64,000 nt of DNA, taken from Selaginella tamariscina (Eukaryota; Streptophyta; Lycopodiopsida; Selaginellales; Selaginellaceae). The stretch is taken from positions 334,066 to 398,065 of the forward strand of contig PUQB01000208.1 of assembly GCA_003024785.1 (NCBI GenBank), written 5' to 3'. The number at the start of each line of letters is the position of its first letter. Positions within the stretch are counted from its first letter, which is position 1. The notes under the pieces are model-generated. The model was given only the letters and a program-made list of their open reading frames with translations. It did not search any database and was not told the DNA's origin. Positions 1,131 to 24,188 of the stretch are shown here, one piece after another. Both the position numbers and the translations under genes were made by a program.

Positions 1131-1529
1131 TGGTAAGGGCAGTTATAGCTCTTCAAGAGAAGAAGAAGGAATCCTCTTGTTATGGAGAAGGTGAGGTAGT
1201 TACTACTCCTAACAGGAAGGAGAGCTTGTTACAGGAAAATGTAAGCAAGCAGGAGCAGGAATTCTGACCAGAAAGGTCAGACTGATAACGAATCAGAAGG
1301 TACAGATAAAGGTGATATAGATAAAGGTGAACAAAGTTTTTCATTTTACCATTACATGATAAAACAATGGACTCCATGTATCACCAAGCTATAAATCAGG
1401 AGATAAAGATACGCTTGGACAGTTGATAAAGGTAGCTCCTTACATAAGAAACCAGATATTAAATGCATTAAGTTTAGTTCAACAAACATCACCTTCACGT
1501 GAAGGATATACAGTTTGTAAAATGGATAA
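1131..1529. other. Unassigned flank between gag remnant and giant transposon
   Basis: This is moderately AT-rich sequence continuing from the gag remnant. Short open frames exist, but none has a recognisable domain. It ends at the left terminus of the giant transposon. I see no gene here. Confidence 0.5.
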
Positions 1530-1556
1530 ATGCACGTTGTAACTAAAGTGGGCATG
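1530..1556 (+). repeat. Left terminal inverted repeat of giant transposon copy 1
   Basis: The sequence ATGCACG followed by TTGTAACTAAAGTGGGCATG marks the left end. The same 27 bp, with one change (CACG to CACA), begins copy 2 at 52686, where it abuts a retrotransposon LTR, so the boundary is supported by an independent junction. The reverse complement of the right end (14948-14973) reads ATGCAA then TTGTAACTAAAATGGGCATG. Confidence 0.8.
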
Positions 1557-1816
1557 ATACGTGAAAATGGGAATATAAAATAAATTACTAATTAATACTT
1601 AAGTTTTAATTATTAATTAATCATTTAATTAATATGTAATTAAGCCTTAAATATTAATTAATTAATTAATTAATCCTTCAATAACCTTACTTAGTAAGGA
1701 ATATTCCTAAAATATCTTAGAATATTCATATTATTCTAAAAATAGTTTACAATAATGAAGAAATACTATCAAACATAATTACAAATGAAATCATTTTCTT
1801 ATCAACATGTTAATTT
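1557..1816. other. AT-rich left subterminal region of copy 1
   Basis: This is non-coding and very AT-rich, with repeated TTAATTAA and GAATATTC-type short palindromes. It includes an ATGGGAATATAAAA motif shared with the left end of the 245-bp MITE at 22044-22288. It lies downstream of the HAD-like gene and may supply its 3' end. No gene is seen. Confidence 0.6.
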
Positions 1817-3060
1817 TTATAAATACTTTCTTTCTATCATACAAAGAAATCTTTTCATTTTGTCTAAATCATCACTCTCCGGATTAATCAAATCATTTTG
1901 GTCAATATCTTGATGTTGTTGCCACCACTTAACACTCTCACGAATGCAATTGGGAGTTGCCATCCTTGTTAATACATAAGATGTGATAGAGAAGGTCTGC
2001 ATAAAGGCTCATCTAAAAACTGACGTTCCTTAAGAATAATATTATAAAGCGCCCGGTTGCTATCCTTCATTTTATAAAATTCAATATCACGAGAAAGAAA
2101 AGCTTCAGGAAATGTATGATACGGTGGATACTGCTCACAAAAATTTTCGAGATTCTTCTTTCTGAGGCACGTATCCAAGTAGTTCACTAGCTCATCCATG
2201 ATATCGTATCAGAATATGGATCGAAAGTGATTGGATGAATACAAGCAATGTTTTGGTTGAGCATAGCCTTCTGAGGAGAGTCGTCTACTACTAAGATATG
2301 TGCATTCTTCGTTATCCTTAAGCGACTGATCTCCCCATGAGTCCCAATTATTCTTTCATTCTTGAAGAAGTATGGCTTGCTTTCCTTTCTTATATTGTGA
2401 AATTCGAGAGGTTTATAACACATTCGCTGGTCAAAAATCCAATCTTTACGAATCACCTCTTCTGCAACACTACAATGTTTCTTAAGTAAATCAACAGCGG
2501 TGTTAAGTTATGAATCTGCATGCATGACCAAATCCCCACAAGCGCACCCATCTCCTTAAGCTTTTGAAAGAGACGATCCAACCCTGGACGAAAAATAATA
2601 TCATATCGAAATTTACCATGACAAGGAATGAAATCTCCTTGTTTGATTTCTTTTTTCTATCCTCGGGCCTTTGTCGATGAAGCAGAACACCATTGACATC
2701 CAACAACACAATATGGCCATGAGTAACATGAGATAGCGTTGCCTCTTGAATACTTTGCAAATCACTTGTTTGCTCCCTTTCACATTTATCCGTTGCCACT
2801 ATTCGTTGCCTATCCCTTCATCATTTAATTGTACATCATCCTTACAAGATTCAGATATTGCATGCGCTGAAGAAATTGATTTCGGAACTGAAGCCAATAA
2901 AAATGATGATGCAAAAACTGAAGTGGCCCCCATGGTAACGATGTTTTGAGCTGCATTATTATCCATTTCCTGCATGAACTCTGTCATTCTGACATGTGGC
3001 ACAAGAAATTGTCGCCAAACCCCTCTCTTACCTCATGGCAATGCTGAAAATCCATGTTCT
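1817..3060 (-). pseudogene. FCP1/NIF-type HAD phosphatase-like gene, copy 1 (frameshifted)
   Basis: This is a haloacid-dehalogenase-fold protein of the FCP1/NIF type; such enzymes dephosphorylate protein Ser/Thr residues. Reading leftward: a low-complexity N-terminus (MTEFMQEMDNNAAQN at about 2990), HAD motif I as LLDVNGVLL near 2700, IFRPGLDRLFQKL near 2580, IWSCM (motif II region) near 2525, CYKPLEF near 2410, and motif III as ILVVDDSPQKA near 2270. A helical tail (MDELVNYLDTC) and a further segment (ESVKWWQQHQDI) follow. In motif I the second acidic residue is Asn (DVN instead of DxD), so catalysis is doubtful. Compared with copy 2, this copy has single-base losses near 2500, 2655 and 2803 that break the frame. 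Both copies share a frame change between the HAD core and MDELVNYL, near 2200, which may be an old break or an unrecognised splice. The start is uncertain. Confidence 0.75.
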
Positions 3061-3270
3061 CAATTATTTCATTACATCTGCAAAATGATAATTAGCTGAC
3101 CTTAAAATTATCAAGGTATATTATTTACCTTGTTAATGTGTGACCCATGTTTGAACTAAAAGCTTCATTAATCCTTGAGAATTTATTTTCTGTACAAATA
3201 TAAAAGAAATATACAAAAATGCCTTATGTTACACTCATTTACAACTATTCATCACTCTATCAATTCATTA

Positions 3271-6200
3271 TCAATTCTTCTTCGCTATTACCTTCTGATG
3301 AGGCGAAGAAGGTCTAAGCCGCTTGTGAGATGGTTCAAGATCTTCTGCATCTTCTATTGATGTTTCCATGGGTCCTGGAGTGTGCGAATGTTCTGTACTC
3401 CTCGAGATAACTTCCGGTCTAATATCTGATTGAAGTTCGTTCTCAGACTCCGAGATTGAACCAGATTCACCTTCAGAGCTATCGCACTTATCTGGAGGGA
3501 ACTTTCTCAAATACGCCTTTATGGATCGTTGGGGTACTCAGTTGAGACCCAATCTATCCACTTGTTCAGGTCCTCAACCATGGTCTTATCCTTTCAACGG
3601 CAAACACACATGTATGCCGAAGGTAACACTCCTTCAAGACGGACCCCCTAGTGCAGTAGTCAAAAACCCACGCATCACTGTGAGGACCCCTGATCAAGTT
3701 GACGATGCTCCGTGCCGCTTGACTTGTAATGTTTGGATAACGTACATTGCCGAATACGTCACTCATACCTATCGGTGTATCGGATGGAGGTTCAGGGCCG
3801 TTGGAGTGCAAACAGATGCCTGGCCAGTCATTTGGAAGCTTGAAATTGTTTGGCGCATTCCTAACAACCAAGTGAACAACAGTATCAATGCACTTGGGAT
3901 TAGCATCGTTCATATAAAATCCTGTCCAACGATGTCTATTCTTCTTGGCGAAGGCGAAGGCAAAAGTATCGGTGACATGAGCAAGAATCAAGAAATAAAT
4001 ACCTGAAAAAGTAGGTATCAGTGAAGAGCGCAAGCATGAATTCAATAATAAATACCTTCTATGTATATGCTTGCACGGCTAAGTTTCTCCACCAGATCCT
4101 CTAGTGCCCTATCTGTCGAAAGATTTTTTGACACCCGCCGATCCATCACGAACAATTGAAACGGTTTCCTACAAGCAGTGATGTTACCCCATAAAGTCTC
4201 CGAATCTAACAACAAACATCTGTAGGGCTTGTCGTGATTCGTAGCATCCTCCTTTATAAGGTTCAATTCGGTTCTCCGCTGCTGAAGGACTGCCATAAGA
4301 GAAGGCGTCATCCCAATGTTCTCCTTTTTGGCGTTGGCGTGCAATAGATTCTTGCCTAGATCTTCCGATTGGTTCACCCATTCGACAAGCATATCATCGT
4401 TCGTCACATGCAAATATTTGCTGACCTCTTCATATGTTGAAGTCGAGGTCCAACCCAGTTTGTGGCAGTGTATTCCCAACCACTCCTTGAAATGCCTGAC
4501 CGTCTTCAACTCCATTGCCTTGAGATGAAAAGGAGAGGTTGGGCTGCTGTTATTAATTTGTAGTTTGCCATCGATCACCAAATCAGCCAAGACTTCCATC
4601 TCCTCCATCGTTGTTCCATTTAAAGGCTTCAACCATGTGAGCTTGAAATCGTTGTCTACATCCTTTGTAGATTGAACAGACTTAGCCTTCGGCGTCTTAC
4701 TGGGTTTCTTTGCAGACTTTTCTGAGGGCTCCCCTTCACTTGTCTGCTTCTTCTTCAGTGTTCCTTTTGAAAAGGATTCCATAATCCCCAACCATTTGGC
4801 AAAGATCCTATCTTCGGGGCAAGAAATCAACATCATCAGAAAGGATGTTTCCTTCCCGCCCACCTGGGCAAAATCAACTGCTGCAATTTCTTCAACTCTC
4901 TGAGGAAAAAGACAGATTAATATACCGGCGAGATAAATCCCGCCCAAACAATTTGCTTACCCGGTATTCCGCAGATTGTGTATTCCCTGCGGTAGCTCTT
5001 TGTGGTCGCTGAAGAGATTCCCACACGGCTCGCGTGTGTTTAAACTTCTCCCATATTTTGCTGTTGTAGTGGTTGGTGTCGGCAGCGTCCCATTCCGCCG
5101 ATAACTTATGGTACTGCTCGATTGTGAGATTCGGCTTAGCTAAAAACGCCGATCTTTTTGTCAGCTTCTCACGGGTATGCTCGGAAAGTTTTGTTGCCAT
5201 CGTTCCTTTGTTGTGTTCTCGAGAAGTCGTTGGGCTGCCGTTATTGTGTGCTGGCCACTAATGATGTAGTACTTGATAGATCTTTTATTCTCCGTCTGAA
5301 TCTTCATGAGTTGTTCTGGTGTTGTGATCCAGACTTTGTCAGCACCCTTCCTTCTTTCATAGTATGGACACAAAACAGCATTATGTGGAACGGTATAANA
5401 AAAAGGTAATTTACAATGTTGTGTATAGTTTATTTTACGCTTCCAGTGTTGTGATTCAGACTTTGTCAGCCCCTTCCTTCTTTCATAGTATGGACACAAA
5501 ACAGCATTATGTGGAACGGTATAAGAATTGTCGTCCTTCATCTTCTCCATGAGCTCAGCTACACGTTCCTGGTTGAGTGGCCTGTAATTGAAGTTTGGGT
5601 TGACGCTGCAATATTTAACCCTACAAGGATAAATCTTATCATCCAACATCATTTCCTTGTGACTTATTGCAGCATGAGATGCCACAGGTGCAGCTGACAA
5701 AACGATTGATGATTTTCTTTTGCGATCCGAATCAACATGTGTGATCCCCGACTGCAGCTGTTCTAGTGTTCTCGGTACACTCTTCCAGCTCCCAAAGCTT
5801 CCTAAGCAAATTGAACGTGATCTGTAGAGAACCTGAGACCGAGCCACCCTCTCAATCTCCTTATGATGTCGCTGTGTTCTTCTTCAATGTGAAGAGGGAA
5901 GATTGCTCCACTTGCTGATTTTCTGTATTGTGAAGCAATATCTCCTGACAATACACCTACTCGATGAGTCTGAAGATTCGAAGTAGACATCCAGATGGAT
6001 CCCCTCCATAGATGGGCTTTCGTTGAGTTGAAGAAGAACTCCAAGGTCAACATCATTAGTGAACACGTGAACGTCATTATCCACAAGTCGACAAAACCAC
6101 CCGAAATTAATGTTGTAACTGACGACCTCTGGATCCGAGAACGTGACATTGGATGGAACAAGGCATATGTGTCGAGCATCGTCCAATCTGGGTTCGCAGC

Positions 6201-6523
6201 CTGCTTTCGGGTGCTTGACTAGCGAATCTACTTTCCATTGTTTTGCTTGTCCATGAGATGTGACAGAGGTTAATTTGACAGCAGCCATGGTTGCTCCAAT
6301 GCGCTTCCCATTTATCTTAAAATATGGCCAAGTTGATTCCAGAATCCCCCTGCCCATCTCTTCTCCTGCTCTTGTCTTTAATGTCACCTCAATTCCACAT
6401 CTGAATACAAAAATGATTAGTTCAAGTATCCGAGTATAACAGATTTTATTTTAATTCTTACCCAGAATTTGACGACGACTCCATACTAATGACTCGATCT
6501 CCTTGTTTGATCAAATCGTCCTT
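3271..6523 (-). pseudogene. ParB-like / DNA-methyltransferase-like fusion gene, copy 1
   Basis: This is a spliced gene of about 1000 codons. Introns with GT-AG ends are visible at 6401-6461, 4900-4960 and 4003-4055, giving exons 6462-6523, 4961-6400, 4056-4899 and 3271-4002. An N-terminal region of unknown type (WPYFKINGKRIGATM) is followed by a ParB/sulfiredoxin-like domain: RPLNQERVAELMEKM near 5570 and YYIISGQHTITAAQRLL near 5250, resembling the GxHRxxA box but without the Arg. Next come a Lys-rich linker (KKPSKTPKAKSVQ) and a beta-class methyltransferase-like domain: LLLDSETLWG at the DPPY position, NVRYPNITSQAARSIVNLI, then VFDYCTRGSVLKECYL at the FxGxG position and VFAVE. The last exon ends in an acidic/Ser tail. 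Both catalytic motifs are degenerate, so binding rather than methylation is likely. ParB-methyltransferase fusions are known from phages and bacteria. The frame is broken near 3585, near 5890, and at the 'n' at 5399, where about 130 bp are duplicated. Confidence 0.65.
4931..4946. repeat. Degenerate palindrome inside a ParB-like gene intron
   Basis: The intron at 4900-4960 contains GGCGAGATAAATCCCGCC around 4927-4944, a three-mismatch relative of the array palindrome. The same variant sits in the matching intron of copy 2 (56047-56064), so it predates the split of the two copies. Confidence 0.6.
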
Positions 6524-6624
6524 CTGCAAAATAATACACTATAAATAAAATATATAAAAACGCACACACACTTGTATAAACCCGAATATACAAAAATAAT
6601 ACACAGAGAGAAGTAGACGTAATT
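6524..6624 (-). promoter_or_regulatory. Upstream region / possible 5' intron of ParB-like gene
   Basis: A TTTTGCAG-type acceptor on the minus strand precedes the first visible exon (6462-6523), which suggests at least one more 5' exon to the right. The upstream exon was not identified. Confidence 0.35.
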
Positions 6625-6711
6625 AACTGTCCGAAGCTCACATTTGTGTTAGTGCAAAAGAAAGATAACATTTCGTTTTAGAACCACCACAAATGTGAGC
6701 TCTGGACAGTT
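6625..6711. repeat. Imperfect inverted repeat (hairpin) upstream of ParB-like gene
   Basis: The arms are 6625-6648 (AACTGTCC...GCTCACATTTGTG) and 6688-6711 (CACAAATGTGAGC...GGACAGTT), separated by about 39 bases. The same structure, with one arm more degraded, is found in copy 2 around 57630-57713. It could be a regulatory hairpin, a small-RNA precursor or the ends of a tiny insertion. Function is unknown. Confidence 0.65.
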
Positions 6712-6837
6712 TTACATAGATTCCTAGCTTTTACTCGAAATATTATGATAAGATGATAAAAGTAAATAAAATGAGATATGCAACTTATATATACTAATAC
6801 ACATATATATTCACATGGAAGGTGCGGCGCCTTCCCC

Positions 6838-8405
6838 CCTCCTGAAAGAGGATTAATCTCGCCACCTTTCTGGAGGCCTTGAACGGGAGTGCGGAATTAA
6901 TCTTGCCACCCTTCTCGGTCTCAGAGAGAACTGGGCAGGATTTATTTCTCACACCCCTTCAGTGACTCCAGAAAGGAGGCGGGATTAATCTCGCCCACCA
7001 TGTAAGGGATGGTTAAATGAATCTCCCACCCTTCCCATTCCTCCATTGGTATGTTGTAAACCTTCTACGTCTTAGACAGAAACGTTTGGGATTGGTCCAA
7101 CTCACCAATGGAGAAAAAGGAAGGGTGGCGGATTCATTCTCCAACAGGCATTGAAGACTCGGCGGGATTAATCCCGCCGCCCAGGGCCTTCACTCGTCCC
7201 TATGCGGCGGGATTAATCCCGCCGGACGCCAATTCCCTGCGCGGAATCGGGCGGGATTAATCCCGCCGCCTAGGCACTTCAGGCAGGCCAATGGCGGCGG
7301 GATAAATCCCGCCCGATTCCGCGCAGGGAATTGGCGTCCGGCGGGATTAATCCCGCCTCCCAGGCCCTTCACTCGGGCCTTAGTCGGCGGGATTAATCCC
7401 GCCGAACGCCAATGCCCTGTGCGAAATCTTGCGGGATTAATCCCGCCGCCTAGGCCCTTCAGGCAGGCCAATGGCGGCGGGATAAATCCCGCCCGATTCC
7501 GCGCAGGGCATGCGTACGCGGCGGGATTAATCCCGCCCACCATGTAAGGGATGGTGAAATTAATCCCACCACCCTTCTCAGTTCCCTCCATTGGTATTTT
7601 GTAAACCTTTCTCCGTCTCAGACAGAGTTATCGGGATTGATTCAACATACCAATGGAGGAAAAAAAGAAGGGTGGCGGGATTAATCCCGCCACCGGGTAA
7701 TGAAGGTTCGGAGAGACTAATCCCGCCGCCCTCTCGTAAATCATGCGCTCACACATATATATTGGCTGCGGCATTTTGAACAGGGATGGGTGGGGGCGGG
7801 ATTAATCCCGCCGCTTATATCCTGCGGAAGTGCCTGAGCGGCGGGATTAATCCCGCCGCCCTCCGCGAAGGGCATGAGCGTGGGGCCGGATTAATCCCGC
7901 CGTTCATGTCCTGCGTGAATTCCCTGGGCGGCGGGATTAATCCCGCCGCCTTACGCGCAGGACATGTCATGCAGGCTCTTCGGTTAGCCTTCCGTGCAGG
8001 ATCTTTCATGCAGGCTCTTCGGTTAGCCTCATGAGCGGCGGGATTAATCCCGCGCCCATCCCCTGTAAATGCCCTGCGCGGAATCCGGCGGATTAATCCC
8101 GCCCATTAGGGCCTTCACACAGGCCATTGCCGGCGAGATAAATCCCGCCGCATTCCGCGCAGGGCATGGGTGAGCGGCGGGATTAATCCCGCCGCCGAGG
8201 CCCCTCACGCAGGCCATGGGCGGCGGGATTAATCCCGCCGCTCTTCGGTTTGTCGTAGAGCGGCGGGATTAATCCCGCCGCCCATAGCCTGCGTGAAGGG
8301 CCTCGGCGGCGGGATTAATCCCGCCGCCATGGCCCCAACCATATAGCGGCGGGATTAATCCCGCCGCCGAGGCCATAAACCTATAGCGGCGGGATTAATC
8401 CCGCC
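6838..8405. repeat. Left palindrome array of copy 1 (16 perfect GGCGGGATTAATCCCGCC)
   Basis: Perfect 18-bp palindromes start at 7161, 7206, 7250, 7340, 7386, 7520, 7674, 7795, 7840, 7930, 8176, 8222, 8262, 8308, 8348 and 8388. About ten near-copies lie among them; the commonest variants are ATAAAT for ATTAAT in the centre and CTCGCC for CCCGCC in one arm. Many neighbours are 40-46 bp apart (about four helical turns). Spacers are themselves repetitive, for example CCAGGCCCTTCACTCGGGCC and CCAATTCCCTGCGCGGAAT. The array lies just upstream of the ParB-like gene. As single strand, each unit can form a 6-bp GC stem with an ATTAAT loop. The role is unknown; possibilities are a binding site for an element-encoded protein, a silencing or methylation target, or a recombination hotspot. 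Confidence 0.95.
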
Positions 8406-8429
8406 GCTCGAGGGGCTTAGCGTGTGTGC

Positions 8430-8487
8430 GAGAGATAAAATTAATAAATAAAAAAATTATACAGATAAAAACACACACACATATATA

Positions 8488-8534
<47 letters not shown>

Positions 8535-9170
8535 GTATGTATAGGAGTGTACGTGTGTGTGCAAGAGATAGATAAATAAATAAAATTATACAGTACTGGT
8601 ACACATAATATATGTGTGTACATAGGTATATATATGTGTGTATATGTATATCGTGTGTATGCGTGTGAGCGAAACAAATAAAATCATACAGATAAACAAA
8701 CACACACACACATATATATACACAGGAGTGTGCGTGTGTGTGCGAAAGATAAAACTAATAAATAAATAAAATTATACAGATAAACACACACATATATATG
8801 TGTGTATATAGATATATAATCCATAAGAAAGAGAGAGAGAGTCTGTGAATATATAAGCATATATATAAACTAGTGTTGTATGTATGTATATATGTATATA
8901 GGTATATATATATGTGTATATGTATATTGTGTGTATGCGTGTGTGAGCGAAACAAATAAAATCATACAGATAAACAAACACACACACACACACACATATA
9001 CATACACAGGAGTGTGCGTGTGTGTGCGAGAGATAAAACTAATAAATAAATAAAATTATACAGATAAACACACACATATATATATGTGTGTATATAGATA
9101 TATAACCCATATGAATATATAAGCATATATATAAACTAGTGTTGTATACTATTTGTTAATATGCATTGAT

Positions 9171-9222
<52 letters not shown>

Positions 9223-9520
9223 GCAGTGTGCGTGTGTGTGGGAGAGATAGATCAATAAAAAAAAATTTACAGATACTGGTACACATAATATATGTATGTA
9301 TATATGTATATAGGTATATATATATGTGTGTATATGTATATCGTGTGTATGCGTGTGTGAGCGAAACAAATAAAATCATACAGATAAACAAACACACACC
9401 CACACACACATATACATACACAGGAGTGTGCGTGTGTGTGCGAGAGATAAAACTAATAAATAAATTTATACGCACACTCCTATACATATATACATACATA
9501 CACACACACACACACATCTC
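8430..9520. repeat. (TG/TA) microsatellite block in transposon centre
   Basis: This block holds several tandemly related segments of about 300 bp. Each contains long (GT)n and (TA)n runs, GTGCGTGTGTGTGCGAGAGATA and AAATAAAATTATACAGATA. Open frames in this block are low-complexity artefacts (His/Thr/Tyr/Ile-rich) and are not genes. Copy 2 holds a shorter version at 58990-59440. Confidence 0.9.
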
Positions 9521-9529
9521 ACCTGTGTG

Positions 9530-9700
9530 CACAGCCGCCGCCGCCGATTTCACAGCCGCCGCCTCTTGAAACCCTAAGAATATACCTAAACCCTAAAGGA
9601 ATTAAATATATATATTAACCCTAATAGAATATTCCTTCTGAGAATATACTTAAACCCTAAAAAGAATAAAATATAGATTCGCCCTAAACGAATATTCTTT
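9530..9700. promoter_or_regulatory. CCG repeats and telo-boxes in transposon centre
   Basis: Here are GCCGCCGCCGCC runs (9532-9565) followed by several AAACCCTAA telo-boxes (near 9568, 9590, 9652) and AGAATAT motifs. Copy 2 repeats this at 59455-59600. In plants, telo-boxes occur in promoters and are bound by TRB proteins, which can recruit Polycomb; whether that applies here is inference. It might be a promoter or 5' UTR of a central transcript. Confidence 0.4.
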
Positions 9701-9884
9701 CATTATATTATTAGCGCGTGCGTGTGCGTGGGTGTATCACATACACCCCAAAAATATAAATCATGCAGGGATTTAACATGTGTGTGTCCATGAGAGTGTT
9801 AAAGTTTCATGTGTATCAATACATACATACACATTGCATATATATTATAACACACATGTATACAGACATACATACATATTACAT

Positions 9885-10463
9885 GGGTTTAGGGTTTAGG
9901 GTTTAGGGTTTTGGATTTAGGATGGATCATGCATGGTGTGTATGTATGAGAGAAGAGAGAGTGTTGAAAAATTATTTTTGTACACATTGCATATATTAGT
10001 ACACATATATACTTACACATATTATACACAGATATACATACATAGTATATGAGAGAAGAGAGACAGTACATATTATGGATCATGCATGGTGTGTATTATA
10101 CACACAGACATACATACATATTAGTACATAATATTAGAGAGACCGAGTACATATTATAGATCATGCATGGTGTGTATGTTTGAGAGAAGAGAGACAGTAC
10201 ATATTAACATGGATCATGCATGGTGTGTATGTATGAGAGAAGACAGAAAGTAACATATATACATACAGAGTACACATATATACATGCACACGTGTATACA
10301 CACAGACATACATACATATTACATGAGTAAATTCATTGTGTTACATATTAGGGTTTAGGGTTTAGGGTTTATGGATCATGCATGGTGTGAAGAGAGAGTG
10401 TTGAAAAATTATTTTTGTACACACATGTATACACAGGGTTTAGGGTTTAGGGTTTAGGGTTTT
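9885..10463. repeat. Interstitial telomere repeats and ATGCATGGTGTGTATG minisatellite
   Basis: TTTAGGG arrays of three to four units occur near 9885-9912, 10349-10370 and 10436-10461. Between and around them is a minisatellite with the core GGATCATGCATGGTGTGTATG, followed by TATGAGAGAAGAGAGA. Copies lie near 9922, 10077, 10160, 10209 and 10375. Copy 2 has the same composite at 59770-60300 with a different number of units. Confidence 0.85.
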
Positions 10464-10735
10464 GCTCCCAACAAGCTTAATATAAATATTACACATGTAA
10501 ATTCAATGTGTTACATACACACAGATTGAGTACATATATCATACATGCGTTGAACATGATGTTTTCAATAAAGAAGCAACATATTTCTTCAGTTTGGTTT
10601 AGGGTTGTGCATGTGTGTGCATATGTGTTTTTGTAAGTTCTTGTAATGCGTGTGTAAATTTATGATTGTGTTTATATATGTGTGCAAAACAAACATCGAA
10701 TAATTAAAAACAACCATTTTAGGAGGCAGGGAAGG
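10464..10735. other. AT/GT-rich spacer, site of a deletion relative to copy 2
   Basis: No gene is seen. At about 10705 the sequence jumps from AACATCGAATAATTAA to CCATTTTAGGAGGCAG. In copy 2 these two points are separated by about 1.2 kb (60622-61850), which includes a candidate 5' exon of the transposase gene. Confidence 0.6.
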
Positions 10736-10736
10736 G

Positions 10737-11195
10737 GTGGCGGGATTAATCTCGCCACCACATCCCTGTTTTAAGATTTGGGGACAGGATTTATCCCGAG
10801 ATCTCTTTGAAATCATAGTTTTGGAGAGAGTTATGTGCGGGTTTAATCCCGCCACCCATTCCCCGTCGTAAGAATTGTGGGCGGGATTAATCCCGCCTTG
10901 GACTCCCTCCGACAAGGAAGAGCCGGCGGGATTAATCCCGCCGCCTCTTCCTCCTCGGGGAGTCCGGCGGGATTAATCCCGCCGACTCTCTCCGAAGGGG
11001 AGTCGGCGGGGATTAATCCCGCCGGACTCCCCCGAGGAGGAAGAGGCGGCGGGATTAATCCCGCCGGCTCTTCCTTGTCGGAGGGAGTCCAAGGCGGGAT
11101 TAATCCCGCCGACTCTCTCCGAAGGGGTTGAGTCGGCGGCGGGATTAATCCCGCCGACCGTTCCTCGTCGGAGGGATTCGTGCGGGATTAATCCC
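10737..11195. repeat. Right palindrome array of copy 1 (6 perfect palindromes)
   Basis: Perfect GGCGGGATTAATCCCGCC units start at 10880, 10925, 10966, 11048, 11093 and 11138, with near-copies near 10738, 10836, 11006 (one extra G) and 11182. Spacing is about 41-45 bp. The spacers are purine/pyrimidine inversions of each other (CTCTTCCTCCTCGGGGAGTC against GACTCCCCCGAGGAGGAAGAG), so the array also contains longer inverted repeats. It lies directly upstream of the transposase coding exon, probably within a 5' intron. Confidence 0.95.
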
Positions 11196-11346
11196 GCCCA
11201 TCAGTTGTATTAATCAAACATGAGATATTATCTCTAAACATAATTATGTATTATTGCATATGCATATTATTAAGTAACCGTAATTCAGATTTCTTAGAAA
11301 TATTGCATAAACAGATATCATAAATAATACAATTATTTATGTGCAG
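11196..11346 (+). promoter_or_regulatory. 3' part of putative 5' intron of transposase gene
   Basis: This is AT-rich sequence ending in TTATGTGCAG at 11346, a good splice acceptor in both copies (TTATGTGTAG in copy 2), just before the ATG at 11353. Confidence 0.5.
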
Positions 11347-11352
11347 GACAAT

Positions 11353-14300
11353 ATGTTTAATACTGGAGATAAAGTATGTCTTCTTCGGAACAACGAGATA
11401 GTTGGCACTGGAACTGTGGAAGTTCGAGATAATAATGCATCATGTCACAATATTGCCCAAGGATCTTGTGTGTACGTATGGGTGAACACCATTTACAAGC
11501 ATGTTGAGGTTCTGGGAATGGAATTTGAGGAGGGTTCTCCTGTATTGTGGAATTTGGATGAAGTCAAGGCTGACACAGAATATGCAGAGTCACAAACAAA
11601 TAGTAGCACGAGTTTACCAGATGATGGCTTGCCTGCTGTGATGGATGAGGTGATTCTCTTTCTTCGTGAGATTGAAGTCGGAAGAGGCATCATCACAGCT
11701 ATAAATCCAATGGAAGCAGTGTCAGAAGAGAAACTAGGGTCCGACTTCGTGGGTGTAGTTGTGACAGAGGTTTCACCTAATGGCACATTGTATCCTGGAT
11801 CCCTCGTGAGGTGGCGAACATCTGAATTAAGACGGCAAGATGGTTCAACATATTCTGGGTTGGATTTCAATAATAACAACCCGGAAGAACAACTCATATT
11901 TGAAGAGGTTCCTTGCATTGGTCCTATTGTAAGAAAAAGGCGATTCATGGGTTGTAGATCTTCCCCTGCAAGTTTCAGCAAGAGGGTAAAGATGGATCCT
12001 ACATCTTCCGAAAGTGTTACGAGCATTTCCACGATTGACTGTTGCAAGAAGAAGTGTTGTCAGATGGCAGACCGGAATGAAATTACCCAATGTAGACATG
12101 TCTTTCGTATGCTCACCCAAAAGCAAAGGCATGAGTTTGTATATGCTGCACTAACTGGGTGTATTGATGGAATGGCCTCGGACACAGGTTATCAGAGTAC
12201 ATCCATGGTATTTAATAAGGTGGCCATCTGCTTCAAAGCTTGGTACAGTATATACGGGATCCCAAAGACCACGTTCTACCGTCGGAGGGATGAGTGGCTA
12301 GATGGAGCGCGAACCTCAGTTCATGGGAACACGCTTGGTCAAAACCCGCTCTCACATCATGGCAGCCATAGAGATACTCAAGGCTTTTGTGGAAGCAAAT
12401 GCAGACAGGATGCCTCACAAATGCCGAACCACAAATGCAGGGGTCAGGGAAAATCTCAAGGTTTTACCTTCAATCTACACTCAATTGAAACTGTGTGAAC
12501 ATGTGAACAAGTGCCTCAGTTTGATGGGGCTCCAAGCAATCTGCACTGGTACCTTCAACAACATATGGAATACTCATTTTAAGGATGTGGAGATTGCAAA
12601 ACACTCTAGCTTTTCTAAGTGTGACACTTGTACATCATTGAAGGCTGCAGAGGCTTGTGCAAAAACCTTGGTGGAGATCACTACCATTCAAAGGAAGATG
12701 GAGGCCCACATGATTGCACAACAAACTTGCCGGTCTCAGTACTATGCACACCGCATGCTTTCTGTGTCACGCCCATCAGAGTACCTGTGCTTGATCCATG
12801 ACAAGATGGATCATTCAAAGACCAGCATTCCAAAGCTCTTTGCAACACCAAAGTGCCTTGGAAATGTCATGAAACTTCCGATTTCATTGACAGGTGTGCT
12901 AACACATGGACACGGTTGTGAGTCATATGGACACTTTTCACTTCCACATTGGTCTAGCGACTCCAATTTCACTATTGGGTCGTTAGCCATGTGTTTCAGA
13001 AACCTTGAAGCCCACTCACAGACAAGTCCTATCAGTGATCTCAAAGTGAAGAAACAACACCTTCAACCTTTACATAATGCTCTCATGAACACGTCTGCAC
13101 TTGAGGCTACTTGGGAATATGAGAGGCATTGTCAGCAACCTGCACAAAAACAGATGGCCCTGTTGAGAGTTCAGGTTCAGTGGAGGGATCTAGCTCAAAT
13201 AGTGTACATGTGTCCTCAACATCAAATAAGCTTCCTCGTCATTTGCTTTTACAGATGGATAATTGTGCAGGCGAGAACAAAAATAGGTAAATCATTTTAC
13301 TTAAGGGTTTCTCAAGCTCATACTTACTTTTATTTTCTAGATATGTGCTAGCATACTTGTCAATGCTTGTTGCCAAAGGTGTGTTTGAAACAATCACGCT
13401 CAGTTTCCTTATGGTTGGTCACACTCATGAAGATATTGATGCGTTCTTCAGCAAGGTCTCCAACTCTACAAAAAGGACAAGTGCACTTACCTTACCGCAT
13501 ATGATGAATCTTTTTGAAAATTGCATCTCCAAAAAAAGTTGTGCTTTGCTTGTGACTGAGGTGCCAGACTTCAAAAAATTTCTCAAGGAGTATATAAAAG
13601 AAGGGAGTGATTCTTTAGTTGGTCACCTTGTGCCGCTACAATTCTTTTTCTCCATACGAGATGGTATACCTATTATGCAGTACAAGTTACGGCCATCAGA
13701 GCAGGAGTGGTTACCGAAAGAGGGCTTAATGCTCTTCAAAAGTGGAGAGGATGGAAAGCCACTTCTCCCAGAAGGACAACCAGACCCTATTCCATTGAGT
13801 GCCCAGCTCAAGGAACAAGAGGTTATTATTGATGGCATCAAAAAATATGTGGCATGGGTTCAAAAATCGATGCCAAAGAATTCTGATAAGGCAACTGGTT
13901 ACTCAGAACTATATAAGCATGTGGTCAACTATTGGGAGACTGTTGTTCGAGAGTTGGAAGGGCCTACTGTCACAAGTACAGAATTGCAACACCCTTTCTG
14001 GCCTAAAACAAGGTGGCGAGAGGAGATTGAAATGACATCACTGAGCATAGACGACATAGAAGCCAGTAGTGATGTGGAAGTGCAAACCCCACACTTTGTT
14101 GGACAAAGGAACCAAAAACCTAAAGCATACTTTGATTGCTGCAAGGATCTTCAAAAACTAATGATGGTTCTCATTACTCCAGATGCGTCATATAATCAGC
14201 CTATTTGGATGGGTCAAATTATCGACACACCTGAAGTAATCACAAAAAATAGTATTGTTAAGGTTGCATGGTTCAAACCACAAAAAAGGCGACACGAGAA

Positions 14301-14469
14301 GGAGAGCGAAAGATATAATGGATGCCTAGAGAAAACATGGTCTCCCAATCAAAAAGACCCAGCATGTTTTATAAATGTTAAATCCATTCGATATGGGTGG
14401 ATGTCAAGAAGCGTTGATAAAGTCACGATTAACAAAACTGCAAGGGAATGTATGTTTTCTGAAGCTTAA
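11353..14469 (+). pseudogene. DUF7869-type putative transposase, copy 1 (two frame breaks)
   Basis: This is probably the element's transposase, cutting and joining DNA ends in the nucleus. Two related N-terminal modules (GDKVCLLRNNEIVGTGTVEV; VILFLREIEVGRGIITAINP) are followed by a Cys-rich stretch with CCKKKCCQM. A helical DNA-binding-like region comes next (QKQRHEFVYAALTGCIDGM; FKAWYSIYGIPKTTFYRRRDEW), then SKCDTCTSLKAA. The RNase H-like core has three acidic motifs: HDKMDHSKT (12803), MDNCAGENKNR (13255) and GHTHEDIDAFFS (13420). A 54-bp GT-AG intron at 13287-13340 sits right after the second motif. The ATG at 11353 follows a splice acceptor. Relative to copy 2 a T is missing near 12332, and the frame changes again near 13160, so this copy cannot be read through as given. 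The family assignment rests on motif memory, not a search. The C-terminal third (13600-14469) is a conserved-looking tail of unknown role. Confidence 0.75.
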
Positions 14470-14947
14470 AGCAATTACAAAATTATAAAATATCATATAT
14501 TTAATATTCATAATTATTATAAACTCTTTAATAATAGTACCAAATTGTATACTTAACTATATAAATTTAAAAAATGATATGGAAGATTGACTATATTATT
14601 ATAGGATTTTATATATATATTATTACTACTACAAATTTTTAATTAATAATGTTATATTTAAATATTAATATTTTAATAACAACATCAATATTTATATAAT
14701 GTACCTCTTATGCTCTTCCTTAATTGTTATATTAGGCAATATATTATATAATTTAATACATTCTACTTTTTATGTTATTAATTTTTGTTCAATGAATGCT
14801 ATAATTTATTAAAGGGTAGAATACAAAATAGAATATTCTAAAGAATATTCTCTTTTCAAACATATATTCTAAAGAATATTCCTTTAATATTAGAAAATGC
14901 TAATTAAATAGCTAAAATTGCTAATTATTAGGAAATGGGACTATAGC
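14470..14947. other. AT-rich right subterminal region of copy 1
   Basis: This is non-coding. It contains paired AGAATATTC motifs and a block (AATGCTAATTAA...AATTGCTAATTATT) also present at the right end of the MITE at 22044-22288. It probably includes the 3' UTR of the transposase gene. Confidence 0.6.
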
Positions 14948-14991
14948 CATGCCCATTTTAGTTACAATTGCATTTTAGTTACAACTTGAAT
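14948..14991 (-). repeat. Right terminal inverted repeat, with tandem duplication of the core
   Basis: CATGCCCATTTTAGTTACAA (14948-14967) is the inverse of the left end. The core CATTTTAGTTACAA is repeated 18 bp further right (14971-14984), so the true end may be at about 14973 or 14991. Both alignments to the left end are plausible. Confidence 0.75.
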
Positions 14992-15600
14992 TCTTCATGA
15001 AGGGTATTTGTTGTATGAAAGGTCTTCTTAGCAATGAAACAAGGTACTTTGAACATAGTGATAATCTACCAATTTTTAGTTCTCTTGTTTTTGTCACATA
15101 TTTTCTCCAAAGAACTCTTGCCTTAATAGTTGTAACAGAATGCATGTCATCAATGTTCTTAGCATGTTCCCTAAATGTTGAAGTCTGTGGTTAATGTACA
15201 CGTATGTATACATTATGTATATGCAAATTACAATACTCAAATTCTTCAACACATACTTCATGAACAAAATGAGCTCCGTTTACCTAAGGACAAGCCAAAG
15301 ATGGGCATTTCATGTGACCTCTCAAACTATCTCACAACACTCATATTTGTTGCCCCTTCAGAATACTGGCTTTTAGAAATTGGATCAACTTCACAAACTC
15401 TGCAGCTTTTATCAAAATCAAACCTCAACTAATCAAATTGCCTTTCCCATTTCCAATTCTTCTTATTAATGTTGCTACTGCTCCAAAAAATATAATCTTT
15501 GCCTTAATTGCTAATAGTAAATTTTCTAAGAATATTCTTTCCTAGAACTTAGAAATCTAATATGTTGTTTGAGGAACCTTAAATATGAGACAGAAGTAAC
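14992..15600. other. Unassigned sequence right of copy 1
   Basis: This is AT-moderate sequence with short open frames but no recognisable domain. No gene can be supported. Confidence 0.5.
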
Positions 15601-15619
15601 AGGACACAAGATGTACCCC

Positions 15620-15965
15620 TTCATAAATGACTTTAATAGATACAACTAGGTCACGATTGCCATTGAAGACCAAGTTAAAACAACATTTATCGAACCAACC
15701 TTTGGAAGGTGAAAGGTGGATGGGGTGTTGTAGAGGCCAAATAGCATTACCTTAAAGGTGAATGCTCCCCATTTGGTCCAATAGGTATTTCTAAACAATT
15801 TCACCGATTTAATATGAACATTCCTAAATCGACTTCACCACTTATAGATCAGCAAAAGATTATGTGGAGTGCCTGGAATAGGTGTTTTGGTGTCGTTGAG
15901 AGTTTGGGATATCCCTTTTAACCCTTCAAAATGTGTGTTTGGAATGAGTGCATTTGCATTGCATA
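15620..15965 (+). pseudogene. Ty3/gypsy reverse transcriptase remnant
   Basis: Decayed RT segments can be read in shifting frames: VTIAIEDQVKTTFI near 15650, and ISFNPSKCVFGMSAF near 15913, the block that follows the catalytic YxDD region in gypsy RT. The DNA resembles the RT of the element at 28038-32135 (29606-29890), so it is probably a fragment of the same family. Stops and indels are frequent. Confidence 0.65.
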
Positions 15966-17926
15966 TCTTAGCTTCTACAACAATTTGGTTATCCTCGTTC
16001 GGGAGGACAACTTCATCTCCACATTGTACTCTGTTGACTACAGGAAAGACTAATGTTAAATTACAACATAGCAAAAACAAATAGAGATATAGTTACCTCT
16101 CTCTCATCCTTATAGTGAGATCATTCCTCTTTTTGGTTCTCTGCTCAAAAATTGATGCTTTTGACATGCTCTTTTGTTGTTTTCCATGACCACGTGTGCC
16201 TTTTTTTTTTTTCGAGAAGATCCAAAAGCATTTTGCACATAAAACTCTACATTTAAAATACAAGATAAAGACCACATTACTTCTTTACTTCTAGCTCTTC
16301 ATTATAATCAAATTCAAATATCTCTTCATCTAAACCTTCAAATCTTCAACATGCAAATCTCCTTCCAACATCATACTCTTAGGCCATTTTATAATATCCT
16401 ATGAATATAAACTGTCAGGTATGGATATGTGAGAAATCTAAGCATACATGGAGATTTAGAATATCGACAAGCTAGCTAGAGCCAGAAATAGACATGCTCG
16501 TACCATTTCCAGAAAGAAAGTCAACACAGATGTGTACATAAGGAATATGTTCTGCTTCATGAGCAACAACCATGCATGTGCCTATGCGGTTGTCTTTGTA
16601 AAAGGTTGTCTAGACCTCCGAGCCCTAAAAATAGCTTTAAAAAAACCACCAAGTAGATTCGAACTCATACTCCCTAGATGTTTTCGGCTTCTACGGTGCC
16701 TTTTGCAAGCAATTTCAGTTCCAATTTGTCAGCTGCTATATGCTTCTCAACATACTCCAAATCTACTTCATACTACGCAATCAGCCCAAACTTAATAGGC
16801 ATCAATCTCTTGGACTTCACCAAGTTCACAGCAACATTATGTTGCTTCTTGAACCACTCCCCATGTGTAGTTTCAATGTTTAGTGTGTCTTTGTGAAAAA
16901 AGGGGAGTGTTTATTAGTCTCCTCTTTAATGATATTGTTCACAACAAGTAGATTAGCCCACTGGTTGGTATAGCCACATCTTTTAGGCCTTGCCTTCCAC
17001 AAACCAGCATTTTATTTCCCTTCAACTTGAATATGTCCTGCTTTGAAGGTGTTGTATCACTTCAAAACTGGCAAAAAATTTTAACCCATGTGATTGTCAT
17101 TAAGATTTTACGTCTACCTCTTGCCTTCACGCTTTGGACATGCTCCCTTGTATGTGTTGGTTCAACCAAAAGCTGCTTCAGTACATAATTTTCAATGCAT
17201 GTGTCATGAGTAACTAGTGCTAGTGGAGAAGAAGCTACATATAACTGCACAAAATCTATTGCATGAGATAGTGCTCGATTTGTTTGTTGCCCCATCCGTC
17301 ATTTCCTTGGCAATTGAAACAAAAAGCCATATCCAAACCTCTGGGGAAGCCCGTCTCAATTCAAATGTTCATGAGTCATACTAAAGAAACTATTACCCGA
17401 TTATTGTTTAGTCCTAAGATCTTGGTGCAAACTTGGAAAGAAAGGCAACCAGCACATATGTGTCCTGGTCTTCATGATGATGACAAAAGTCATGTCCTCC
17501 TATTGCCGAGAAACTTTCTGATCAATCTAGGGCTAGTATAGGGCCAGTGAATATACTTCATACAAGAATGGTGAGGCTCGGACATATGGTGATGTGCAGA
17601 CTATTGGTGTCGCTCATGGTTTTGGTGAAATCACGCCCCCACTCTTTTGTTGATTGTACAACCTTGGAGAACGCTGTGGTAATAGAATTGGCACGGGTGA
17701 CTTGGAGGAGCTAAACATGTGTCGAGATCACTATGCCTCACCAATTCCATAGATGAAGATGAATCAAGCTATCCCTCTTTGCTGAGTATCGGGTAGTGGT
17801 TGTTGTGTCTCCCCCTCTATTCGTTCAACTAGTATATCGACTTTGTGATCAGCCACCTTGTGTTAGTGATTGGCTTCTTGAACAATCTCTGGTCCTGAAT
17901 AGCTATATGCTCCTAATGATTACCTA
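15966..17926. other. Unassigned decayed repeat sequence
   Basis: There are no convincing genes. Short frames are present on both strands (for example an AADKLELKLLAKGT-like stretch read leftward near 16700), but no family can be named. It is probably old transposon debris. Confidence 0.4.
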
Positions 17927-18208
17927 CTTGATCCTCAATGGATCATGCCATCTTCATGTTATAGCCGGACGTTGGTGTCAAAGTTTTCACTTGGTGCCAC
18001 AAAGGCGGCTTGTTAGATGCCAACCCTGGAATCCCCTTTCTGGAAACCCCATAAAATCTGGTTAGCTACTTGATCCTCAATGGATCATGCCATCTTCATG
18101 TTATAAACGAACGTTGGTGTCAGAGTTTTTACTTGGTGCCACAAAGGTGGCTTGTTAGATGCCAACCCTGGAATCCCCTTTCTAGAAACCCCATAAAATC
18201 TGGTAAAG
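17927..18208 (+). repeat. Tandem duplication (~140 bp) at LTR A junction
   Basis: Two adjacent copies, 17927-18062 and 18066-18208, both contain GATCATGCCATCTTCATG, then TGTCAAAG or TGTCAGAG, then CTTGGTGCCACAAAGG. The duplicated unit spans the inner sequence plus the LTR start. Confidence 0.85.
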
Positions 18209-20505
18209 TAACCCACATTAAGAACCCAACCTTTAGGAGCTTAAACCCTAGCTGACCAAGTCCATGAACGAGGCTCGCTTTGTGAATCAGGATATGCGGA
18301 CTAGCTGAGCTATTGGTGTTGTTCCTAGCTTGGCGTGGTTGAGGTGGCCAAAGCAAGGCCTCAACAATTAGTTCTGCAGAACGTGAACTCGGGCAATGCC
18401 TTTGAGCTTACGAGTAGATATTTTCAGACCAAGGAATTTGACCAACTCCTTGGAAGTGACGTTCCCAGTCATAAAGGCAAGATCCTACCAATGATAAAGA
18501 TAGTTTAACCCAAAGGAGGGACATACCCCTGTCGTGTGGAAGTTAGGGCGGCACAACAAAGGGTTGCACTTTAACGACACAAGTTTAGCTTGAACCGATA
18601 GGAGGTTAACGAGCTCTCTTTTGAACCCAGGAAGCCTCACTACGTACACTCTACCTTAATTATGTGACGAAGGCCCCCCCTGTTTTTCTAAATGAGTAAG
18701 TTAGAAATGCTAGCCCTTAATGAAATTGAGATGAACCCTAAACCTAAGCCCTAGGGGGTATTAAGGCATGGGGTTAGGGCAATCCTAGGGTTAGGTCAGC
18801 CCTAGGGGTGTCCCTAACCCTTTTTTTTTTTGAGAAGCTATATTTAACGAAAAACCTATTTTGTAACATCAAATCGGAGAAGAGTTTTAGAAGGTAAGTA
18901 CTACCTTCATCTAGAGATACCTAGTGTGTCATAGTTTTTACTATGACTTGACCCTTTACTTTGGACGTGACTAGTGTTACCTACTGTACTATGTTGATGG
19001 ACTCTAAATGTAATAGAAAATAGGCCCATTTAATGCACTTGGGTATCTGGTGATGGTCCGGCCGAGTGTCATTAGGTATTTGCAGGAAACTCTAAACAAA
19101 GTTAGAACTTACTTTAGAAACCCACCCCAATTTTGATGTCCCAGTTAGGCTGATTAGTTAATGTAGATGAGTTTGACATGCTTAGTAGGGTTAGGAACAC
19201 CCCTAGGGTTGACCTAACCCTAGGATTGTTTTAACCCATGCCCTAAAAAACCCCACCCCTTGGGTAGGGTTTTAGGGTTAGAGTTAGGCTAAGTTAAACA
19301 CTCTCTCATTAACTTAATAAGGGGCTAACTAATTTCGTGCCAGCCCACTTACACATTCAAGAAAAGAGGGGGTGGGGCTCCGTCACATATAAGTATGTAG
19401 GAGTGAGGGTTCTTAGGTTCATGATTGAGCTCATTACTCTTCTCCTGGTGCAAGCTCTAGCTTATATAGTCAAGGCACAACCCTCTATTGTGCCGCCTTA
19501 ACTTCCAGATGACAGGGGTACGTCCCACCCTCGGAGTAGCTCACCCTTAATGTTGGCAAATCCATGTCTAGAAGGTGTAGCACTCATGACCAAGCAAGGC
19601 ACATTCATGTTCTTGTTGAACTATGGGTGTGGGGTTTTCACATTACTCAGGTCTTGAGGGTTCACTAAGGGGTTCTAGAGTTGGCAATTAGGAGCCACGT
19701 TTGTGGCACTTACATTGGGCTAGATGTCACATGATACAACGCCTGAGGCACACCCTTTGGGGTTGTGTCATGGGTTTGTTGCCAAGGGGTTGGATACTCT
19801 AGCAAACAGGCATGCTTATGCTCACGCTAGGGTGCTAAGCCTTGGGCATTTTGTTAGGTCTCGTAACTAGGTGTGCTTAAGCACACTTGGCTAGGGGAGT
19901 GTCCTCCTTGAAATCCAGGGGTTGAACAACTTAAGCTTGTTAGCAAGAGTCTTTTCGTGAAGCACTCGCAAGGCATGTATTTAGAGTTATCCAAACCTAG
20001 CCTTAGGGAGTTTTACTTAGTAAAACACTTGTGTCTGCCTATGGCGCACACTCGTGTCCTCACTAAGTACTAGCCCTAGGTCTAGGGTATGACTTGGCCA
20101 CCCAAACCCTTAGGGTTTAGTCATGGTTCAGGGTACCCTTTGTCGCCCTAAAGGGGTTGTACTCCCGAATGAGGGTGATTCCTCAAGGGGTAAGTGACGA
20201 TGCCTTGGCTCTGTCACGGGGGTATGTGTGAGACACATCTTCTTGTGAGGTTAGGGCATGAGCATGTCTAAGTCTATTGGGACAGGATCTTAAAGTCTAC
20301 TTGGGTTATCCTCTAGGGTTCAAGGAATGGTCATTCTAGGGGACTTAGGGTAGGACTCTAAGTCTTCTGCCTAATTGGTCCTTTGAGTCAGACTCTTAGG
20401 GTTATCTTGGAAGACTTAGCGTTACTTACACATGGTGATGATGTCGAATGGCCACTTGGTAGCTACGTGTTGCCACATGTTGGCCCTTCGGGTTAAAACT
20501 TTGAC
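18118..20505 (+). mobile_element. LTR 'A', copy 1 (solo or terminal)
   Basis: It begins TGTCAGAGTTTTTAC and ends GTTAAAACTTTGACA, a typical TG...CA LTR with inverted ends. The second copy is split between 36540-37077 and 44856-46137. It contains many GGGTTAGGG/CCCTAACCC-like segments and no coding capacity. An LTR 'B' is nested inside. No target-site duplication was recognised. Confidence 0.7.
18927..19390 (+). mobile_element. LTR 'B' fragment nested in LTR A
   Basis: It starts TGTCATAGTTTTTACTATGA and matches the LTR at 32136-32590 over several hundred bases, including GGTGATGG...GGCCGAGTGTCATTAGG and GTGCCAGCCCACTTA. The right boundary is approximate. Compared with the split LTR A, this section is the extra sequence. 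Confidence 0.65.
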
Positions 20506-20655
20506 ATAGTGATAGCTAATTGGACTATCCCTAAACACCTAAGTACACTAAGTGGGGCTATTTTTCACTATAATAGGGTTCACCACACATCTCGATAGGT
20601 AACAACAGTCAAATCCCAAAGTAAAGGGTCGAGTCATAGTAAAAACTATGATAGT
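20506..20655 (-). mobile_element. Inverted fragment of LTR 'B' end
   Basis: The reverse complement begins ATCATAGTTTTTACTATGAC, then CGACCCTTTACTTTGG, matching the first 100-150 bp of LTR B at 18927 and 32136. Confidence 0.6.
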
Positions 20656-21935
20656 TGGTCCATGGTCTTGGTCAAAGGTTGACTGTGAATGATCTCATGG
20701 TTAAGCTAATCATGTTTTAGAGAGGCCCTAATTAGGAAGACCTAATTTTAGAGAGTGACAGCAGCTTTTGGGAGTGGAGTTCAATTTGCCATAAATTAGG
20801 GGTGAACTAGTTGCTCTAAGGTTGGGTGGTGAGTTAATCAACATCTAGGTATGATGTCATAGGAGTGTAACACTTCACATGATCTTCTTCTTTTTAAAGC
20901 AATGGCTCTTGTGCATCATTGGGCAATGGATGACCCAATGGATATGTAGATCAACCTGTAGCTCTTGGGGTTGTGGCAGCTCTGAGGGTTGTAGTTGTAG
21001 CTCCTTGGGTTCTGCCTGTTGCTCCTCGGCTACATCCAATGGCTCTTGAGATTGGGGTTGTTGTTGCTGCTCCTTGGGCTCTAGCTACAGCTCCTTGGCA
21101 TCCTCCTTCAACTCTTAGGGAGGTGGGAGCTGCTAATGTCTTGTGCATCTTGAGCGGCACCTACAAACAAAAAATTAATGCTGCAAAACTCATCTTGCTT
21201 TCTTTTGTGCTCCCTTGTGGTGCTTTTGGTGTGCTGCATTAGCCATTCCCTTTTTGCTCCTTGGGACAAGCATTATCTTCAAAGCCTACCTAGGAGATCT
21301 TGCAAAATCTTAAGTTTATTGAATGCATACCAATTATGAATTCGTTGGTCCACGTATACACAAATGGAATATTCCTAACACACCAAAATTGCATGAAGTT
21401 TGAAATCATAGTTTTGCTAATGACTTGATATTAAATATTTTACAAATTAAAAAAATGAAAAAAAAAATGCTTCAACTAAACAAGGGGATGATTGCAATGA
21501 GGTTTGAACCTCACACATGCTCGATGTGCATGTATAGTTTGTTGTCTAATTTGTTGAAACGAAACTCATAGCAATCTTAGCAATGGCTGGCACAAAACTG
21601 AGATTTTAAACAAGGTGACAATCTATTGCACATTATCCCCAAAATTACTAGTGATATGCGTGCATTTTAATGGTGTCTCAATGGTTTACAATGTTGCAGG
21701 AGAAGTTCAGCCAAGGTTTCTCTTTGACAACTCTCTTAAAGGAGACATGGTTCATTTCTTACAAACCTTTGATTCATTAAAACCGGTATGAGTTTTAGTT
21801 TTGCATGCCAAGACTATCTAACATAACAAATCAAACTTGCAACAATTCAATTATCTGATATTGTTGAGATGCCATAGCATGTTAGGAATATTCCAACTAA
21901 CCAGTCACACATGTTATGAACTAGATGCATGTATA
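20656..21935. other. Unassigned; low-complexity GCTCCTTGG repeats
   Basis: Between about 20955 and 21120 there is a degenerate repeat of GCTCCTTGGGNTCTG-like units (Ala/Pro/Val or Thr/Ala frames on either strand). This is low complexity and not gene-like. Nothing else is recognised. Confidence 0.5.
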
Positions 21936-22043
21936 AACTTGTTATGTGCCCTTAGTTCATCTTAAGGGGAGGAGATAAGCTCTTATTTGTCTATAATTTT
22001 TATATATGTTAGCATTTTTTCAATAAGCACTATCAATACTTAT

Positions 22044-23826: not shown

Positions 23827-24188
23827 AATTTTTTTCTTGAAACATAAAATATCATTAATATTTATAAATTTTTTAGGATTATTTTTTATATAAGACTTAA
23901 ATAAAATGTAAATCATGTAATTAAAATTTATTCCTAATATATATTATATTATTATCTCACTTTTTAAATTTATATGAGTAGCATGTACTGGTTGTGGTAT
24001 ACATATACATTAGTTTATGATAACATTACGATGCAGAGTTGTGAAAACAAGTTTAGTATAAGGACCCACATCATGATATAAAACAAAATAATAATTATAT
24101 ATTCTTTTAACTTGTTTATTATTTATAAAGCTAAAACAATATAATTTATTCTTCATTTTAATATTTCCAAACCAAAAAGTTACAAACT
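23827..24188. other. AT-rich sequence without recognisable features
   Basis: This is very AT-rich and non-coding. It lies downstream of the F-box pseudogene and could include its 3' UTR. Confidence 0.5.

Follow-up and report, generated by a model that had tools for sequence, protein, structure and literature searches.

Gene content, termini and genomic copies of a large transposon

The window analysed here is a stretch of 64,000 nucleotides of Selaginella tamariscina DNA that lies within contig C514 of the host assembly (300.7 Mb, 1391 contigs). From 1530 to about 14973 or 14991 it holds a DNA transposon (copy 1) with two divergent coding regions, an arrangement already described in the initial annotation: gene A, a region of one or two genes delimited from open reading frame (ORF) pieces and the alignment of copies, runs on the minus strand from about 6450 to 1817, and gene B, which codes for a transposase of the DUF7869 type, on the plus strand (11353–14469, from the first ATG of the open frame to the stop). 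Arrays of an 18-bp palindrome are found at 6981–8402, 5' of gene A, and at 10742–11195, 5' of gene B. The element measures 13–15 kb, and five copies read end to end span 14.1–14.9 kb. The second unit that the same annotation had placed at 52686 was recovered by alignment from its left terminus; this copy 2 (52686–64000) is clipped by the window end, and its two arrays (57830–58987 and 61580–62518) contain 18 sites each.

The left terminal inverted repeat of copy 1, ATGCACGTTGTAACTAAAGTGGGCATG, occupies 1530–1556 on the plus strand and the right one 14948–14973 on the minus strand. Their common part, TTGTAACTAAARTGGGCATG, was found without mismatch at 1537 (+), 14948 (−) and 52693 (+), and with up to three mismatches it has five matches in the window compared to a mean of 0.02 in 100 shuffles. 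As this exceeds chance, the inverted termini proposed for the element are real. On the left, copies usually start with ATGCACGTTGTAACTAAAGTGGGCATG, and on the right they usually finish in ...ATTTTAGTTACAACTTGCAT. Because the other copies finish in ...GTTACAACTTGCAT, copy 1 probably terminates at 14973, which makes 14974–14991 an extra imperfect terminus-like stretch; thus, of the extent 1530–14991 drawn at first, the left end was kept, and the right end probably lies further inwards.

When the two units of the window were aligned, 1527–7539 matched 52683–58508 in two pieces with 96.1% and 90.2% identity (about 96% over the first 3.9 kb and about 90% over the next 2.1 kb), and 10837–12682 matched 62150–63998 with 91.8% identity, the homology beginning at the left terminus. 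Both units have the same orientation and stand 51 kb apart, as could be expected from a segmental duplication rather than from two insertions. However, the homology stops at the terminus, and many more copies are present elsewhere in the genome, in differing flanks and with target-site duplications. A segmental duplication was therefore rejected, its probability being practically nil.

The abundance of the element was assayed with three probes, the window's own copy being included in each count. With 1 kb of gene A as probe there were 2299 candidates, of which 40 were scored, at 99–100% identity; with the right end there were 850 candidates, of which 40 were scored, at 96–100% identity. The 304-aa middle exon of gene A was identical and open in all 130 scored places, out of 5760 candidates. 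These counts are lower bounds in which the best matches are favoured and haplotypes may be included; moreover, loci C1027 and C172 have a left flank in common, so that some places may represent one insertion counted twice. The element is, in any case, a very large family and not a pair.

Ten further loci were examined (19 of the 20 stretches, one lying beyond a contig edge), and five of them were complete end to end; in the remaining five (C899, C1182, C691, C638 and C172) an end was not detected or a contig edge was reached. Gene A, the two palindrome arrays and gene B followed in the same order in all five complete copies. An exact 4-bp target-site duplication was present in six of the nine insertions for which both ends were read: TATG in C796, ATGT in C335 and ATTA in C873, plus TTCT in C113 (with a right end that lacks one base), ACAA in C269 and AAAT in C458, the latter three read by eye from the flanks. 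For C113 and C458 these flanks were confirmed in a further analysis. No exact 4-bp duplication was found in C1027, C830 or copy 1 of the window, and three loci without a right end in the stretch examined (C568, C962 and C592) were left out of the count. The co-occurrence of the genes between shared termini at different loci with duplications, which the initial annotation had put forward as a check, was thus observed.

Ends related to those of the element are also carried by miniature inverted-repeat transposable elements (MITEs). One of them, of about 240 bp, lies at 22044–22286 of the window, with related ends and with subterminal parts that by eye resemble those of the large element. An exact 4-bp duplication at the offset matching the large element was detected in 4 of 12 MITEs (L062, L065, L068 and L069), not counting L061, whose duplication is at a different offset. 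The 39 other full-length matches listed were 88–91% identical to the window MITE, and on account of this divergence the MITEs are older than the copies of the large element.

The transposase and the accessory gene region

Gene B is frameshifted in copy 1, but its joined reading matches DUF7869 with an E value of 8.7e-47, in agreement with the large DNA transposon with a DUF7869-type transposase proposed at first. At E 1e-3 it has 44 relatives, the named ones coming from Physcomitrium, Riccia, Mytilus and Solemya. An alignment of 34 relatives shows three aspartates without exception (D353, D525 and D527) and two almost without exception (D350 and D485), and these conserved residues fall in the motifs DKMD, QxDN and GHTHxDID. 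A majority reading of nine right halves kept two stretches of the transposase open in the same frame, of 660 and 392 aa; between them lies a 54-nt GT–AG intron with an in-frame stop (13287–13340, plus strand in copy 1), the removal of which restores the sequence seen in the homologues. Among the five complete copies, gene B is fully open in C830 only; it is broken in its second part in C335 and at several places in C1027, C796 and C873. Many of these breaks are 1-base indels, for which assembly errors or decay may be responsible.

Gene A is more heterogeneous. The HAD phosphatase named in the initial annotation belongs to the NIF family: its region (2190–2817, minus strand) is frameshifted in copy 1, but copy 2 holds it as a single intact ORF of 282 aa (53328–54173), which matches PF03031 with an E value of 1.4e-10. 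The usual motif of HAD enzymes is DxDx. As DVNG stands in its place here, the phosphatase activity of the predicted product is doubtful. The segment 2093–2990 is 99.7% identical to 53234–54130 over about 900 bp, compared to 94–98% for the rest of gene A, which gene conversion or constraint could explain.

The same annotation had read the rest of gene A as a fusion of ParB-like and methyltransferase-like parts, and these two parts fared differently. The ParB-like region, which contains YYIISGQHTITAAQRLL (5164–5883, minus strand), aligned with nine ParB domains in hhalign with a score of 25.6 and with the canonical positions aligned, a value reached by none of 600 shuffles (at most 22.4) and by none of 150 control windows, all from transposase relatives (at most 20.5). 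The reading obtained from other copies scored 28.1, compared to at most 21.3 in 200 shuffles. The ParB-like part is thus moderately supported, and gene A probably contains such a region. In contrast, the methyltransferase-like piece (3569–4078 as first read, minus strand) scored 19.8, which 11 of 250 shuffles also reached, its best alignment being at the motif I region. In the majority reading this segment is an open stretch of 273 aa, and the motif [DNS]PP[YFW] was absent from every minus-strand frame in all 12 copies examined. Within the ParB-like region, a duplicated stretch around 5400–5446 that adjoins N bases is absent from other copies and is probably an assembly artefact.

Relatives of gene A were not found in the protein database at E 1e-3 for residues 1–871, nor at E 10 for residues 236–392, although the word prefilter used makes these weak negatives. 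The NIF ORF had no match among phages. Viral contigs yielded no relative of the transposase, of its alignment, of the methyltransferase-like piece or of the NIF ORF, and a sequence search of the PDB gave nothing above chance level with the NIF ORF, the methyltransferase-like piece or the profile of the transposase.

When gene A was compared with copy 2 in 11 copies (the ten other loci and copy 1), frame breaks were shared at site (b) by all 11, at site (a) by 9 and at site (c) by 8. Introns, assembly indels or real decay would explain them; as the first two would also account for the breaks, gene A was not classed as dead in the amplified lineage. These common breaks, together with the failure to find relatives in the protein database searched and the DVNG motif where DxDx is usual, are what would be seen if gene A were a captured or decaying passenger (cargo of the Pack type, its NIF domain coming from the host) and the arrays were functionless minisatellites spread with the element. 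Against this stands the 304-aa middle exon (4045–4956, minus strand), open in every scored place of the genome, although it was the best matches that were scored and the burst is recent. Copies 1 and 2 differ in this exon at 6, 6 and 19 first, second and third codon positions, respectively, an excess at third positions that is weak or missing in the other gene A segments (2, 1 and 1 in the NIF ORF; 6, 3 and 7 in the methyltransferase-like piece), suggesting constraint on some parts of gene A only. The core of the palindrome is also conserved, while spacing and spacers are variable. A passenger origin is accordingly regarded as unlikely.

The palindrome arrays

The arrays are the most distinctive feature of the element, and they were missing from the initial annotation. 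At up to one mismatch, GGGATTAATCCC has 69 sites in the window, compared to a mean of 0.23 in 100 shuffles, and all of them lie within the two elements; 38 of these are exact GGCGGGATTAATCCCGCC. In copy 1, 23 such sites form the array 5' of gene A and 10 that 5' of gene B. Even when five mismatches were allowed, the 82 sites detected were all inside the elements. The spacing is mostly 44–46 bp, with values of 34–49 bp as well, and is not strictly a multiple of 3.

The same layout was found in each of the five complete copies: one cluster 5' of gene A, one 5' of gene B and a lone site within the gene A region, adding up to 32, 32, 37, 40 and 47 sites per copy at up to three mismatches, with no site in the 22,896 flanking bases of these copies. 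A scan of viral contigs revealed one contig with one site, about the number estimated for chance. One consequence of their palindromic, nearly periodic build is that the arrays at 10837–11195 and 61976–62518 can be read over long open stretches on either strand (GGINPA/AGLIPP repeats), and gene finders may mistake these for proteins. Copy 1 also contains, at 9885–9921 and 10435–10462, the telomere word TTTAGGG of plants in short runs. Such words, like the relatives of the transposase, point to a plant as host.

The position of the arrays bears on their role. They lie at least 3.8 kb from the element ends, at putative promoters, and therefore a regulatory role is likelier than one in end recognition. 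The palindrome core is also absent from all 12 MITEs checked, meaning that it is dispensable in cis for mobility, which again points to regulation.

The transposase itself could be the protein that binds there. The palindromes would then act as an operator or enhancer for the promoters of both genes, the transposase's own included, and gene A would play no part in this. The main argument for this comes from contig L001, in which an uninterrupted DUF7869 ORF of 963 aa has, as in the present element, a contig-specific palindrome beside it, located 5' of the ORF at three places (up to three mismatches, 0 expected). The palindrome sequence is a different one, the terminus of the present element was not found there, and no gene A is visible within its 4.3 kb; L001 (1–4327) is filed under a cyanobacterial metagenome-assembled genome and is probably a eukaryotic contaminant. 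However, L001 is short and a gene A may sit past its edge, and the arrays of the present element, given their distance from the ends and their absence from MITEs, are unnecessary for end recognition. Binding by the transposase is a minority explanation.

The CpG content of the arrays was also analysed. The ratio of observed to expected CpG, 1.05–1.20 for the arrays, falls to 0.73 for gene A, 0.41 for gene B and 0.31 outside the element (15000–22000). Within palindromes, transitions were found at 25 of 836 CpG positions vs. 79 of 1672 other C/G positions (odds ratio 0.62, p 0.04). The respective numbers were 115 of 451 vs. 387 of 3055 in five repeat pairs outside the element, and 26 of 329 vs. 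113 of 2191 in the coding parts of the element. The CpG sites of the palindromes thus show no hypermutability, a stability that hypomethylation or selection for binding would explain, the test being an indirect one. Two findings weaken the stronger claim of arrays free of methylation: the ratio of 0.58–0.80 in the array spacers, and the coding parts of the element, which behave much like the outside repeats.

The window is eukaryotic in its makeup: it contains a gene with an intron as well as elements coding for reverse transcriptase. Two related copies (89% identity) with reverse transcriptase and RNase H domains, at 38668–43139 and 46675–51152, appear to be Gypsy-like, and minisatellites of the TATCCTGTAGGCA and CAGGATCC types are located near them. 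In addition, direct repeats of 1.15 kb at 22686–23827 and 26909–28042 (94% identity, 4.2 kb apart) have the appearance of a pair of long terminal repeats.

Relation to known transposons and a possible mode of action

Elements of the Sola superfamily, reportedly described by Bao and colleagues in 2009, have a DDD-type transposase, 4-bp target-site duplications and terminal inverted repeats. The present element resembles them in its 4-bp duplications and its terminal inverted repeats, and it may do so in its transposase, whose three conserved aspartate motifs are putatively catalytic. It is much larger than the Sola1 elements of bivalves, for which a mean length of 5445 bp is given in the part of the source available (PMC10294476). 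The closest anatomical relative appears to be Sola1-1_Ec32 of the brown alga Ectocarpus, a giant DNA transposon of 21.5 kb with a ParB–methyltransferase gene on the strand opposite the transposase, the product of which has 1104 aa and a clearly predicted methyltransferase domain (PMC12477816). A giant size and an accessory gene opposite the transposase, here probably ParB-like, are common to both, whereas a palindrome array and a NIF region are present here and are not mentioned in the available portion of that description (PMC12477816). The statement in the initial annotation that the combination matches no named superfamily was consequently abandoned: Sola accommodates both the 4-bp duplications and a DDD transposase, and the claimed lack of precedent fails because the algal element already carries such a gene opposite its transposase (PMC12477816). 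The kind is thus known, ParB-like accessory genes having already been published for giant DNA transposons of algae. In the open-licence papers searched, no precedent was found for the palindrome arrays, the NIF region or the connection between DUF7869 and an element flanked by 4-bp duplications, nor was any mention of DUF7869 itself.

A second likeness is to VANDAL21, a Mutator-like family. According to the part of the source available, its protein VANC21 binds dense family-specific motifs in the noncoding parts of the element (PMC5735166), and the arrays studied here are similarly dense, family-specific, noncoding and of tandem-repeat character. The VANC21 motif is described there as a 9-mer in one orientation (PMC5735166), whereas the present one is an 18-bp palindrome; and, unlike in VANDAL21, no VANC domain (DUF1985/DUF287) was matched by Pfam in the gene A pieces scanned.

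Taken together, these data somewhat favour an autonomous cut-and-paste DNA transposon family, Sola-like, in which the arrays would serve self-recognition or anti-silencing. The DUF7869 protein would cut at the terminal repeats by means of a DDD RNase H-type active site, the ends being sufficient in cis, as MITEs without the palindrome core indicate. With less certainty, a DNA-binding protein of the element, for which the ParB-like product of gene A is the likeliest candidate, would bind the arrays before both genes and would mark or de-silence the element's own promoters. Such an action would be analogous to that of VANC proteins and their target arrays in the VANDALs of Arabidopsis or, alternatively, to the self-marking proposed for the algal ParB–methyltransferase transposons. 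The NIF region may serve as an accessory regulator, or it may be a domain captured from the host. In a more specific and rather improbable version, recognition would be parS-like, with the ParB-like protein loading onto the 30–47 palindromes of each copy, marking copies as self and keeping their promoters unmethylated.

Several observations weigh against the Sola-like, self-recognizing transposon so proposed. The profile comparison with ParB domains gave an absolute probability of 13–23%; the ParB call depends on that one comparison, with all 150 control windows drawn from transposase relatives, and the region had no match in Pfam, NCBIfam, PHROGs or PDB. When the whole gene A reading was compared with seven whole phage ParB–methyltransferases, a score of 22.5 and a probability of 0.9% were obtained. 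To this are added the frame breaks shared by gene A copies, the spacers of the arrays, which are moderately CpG-rich by themselves, and contig L001, where a DUF7869 gene has its own palindrome without a visible gene A, favouring the transposase as the binder. The Sola label, in turn, is a putative one, drawn from the description of the superfamily (4-bp duplications and DDD pattern). The low score of full-length gene A and the share given to the transposase as binder are the reasons why the proposal is only somewhat favoured.

As for what the element means, DUF7869, catalogued as of ‘unknown function’, gains a transposon context, made up of termini, target-site duplications and MITEs. Should the ParB-like assignment hold, the accessory gene of the giant transposons of algae would be extended to a plant-like host, and if parS-like loading were true, a eukaryotic transposon would be employing a plasmid-type ParB/array module for anti-silencing. 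With an element-specific palindrome array as a candidate target, the escape of large transposons from silencing becomes a testable question.

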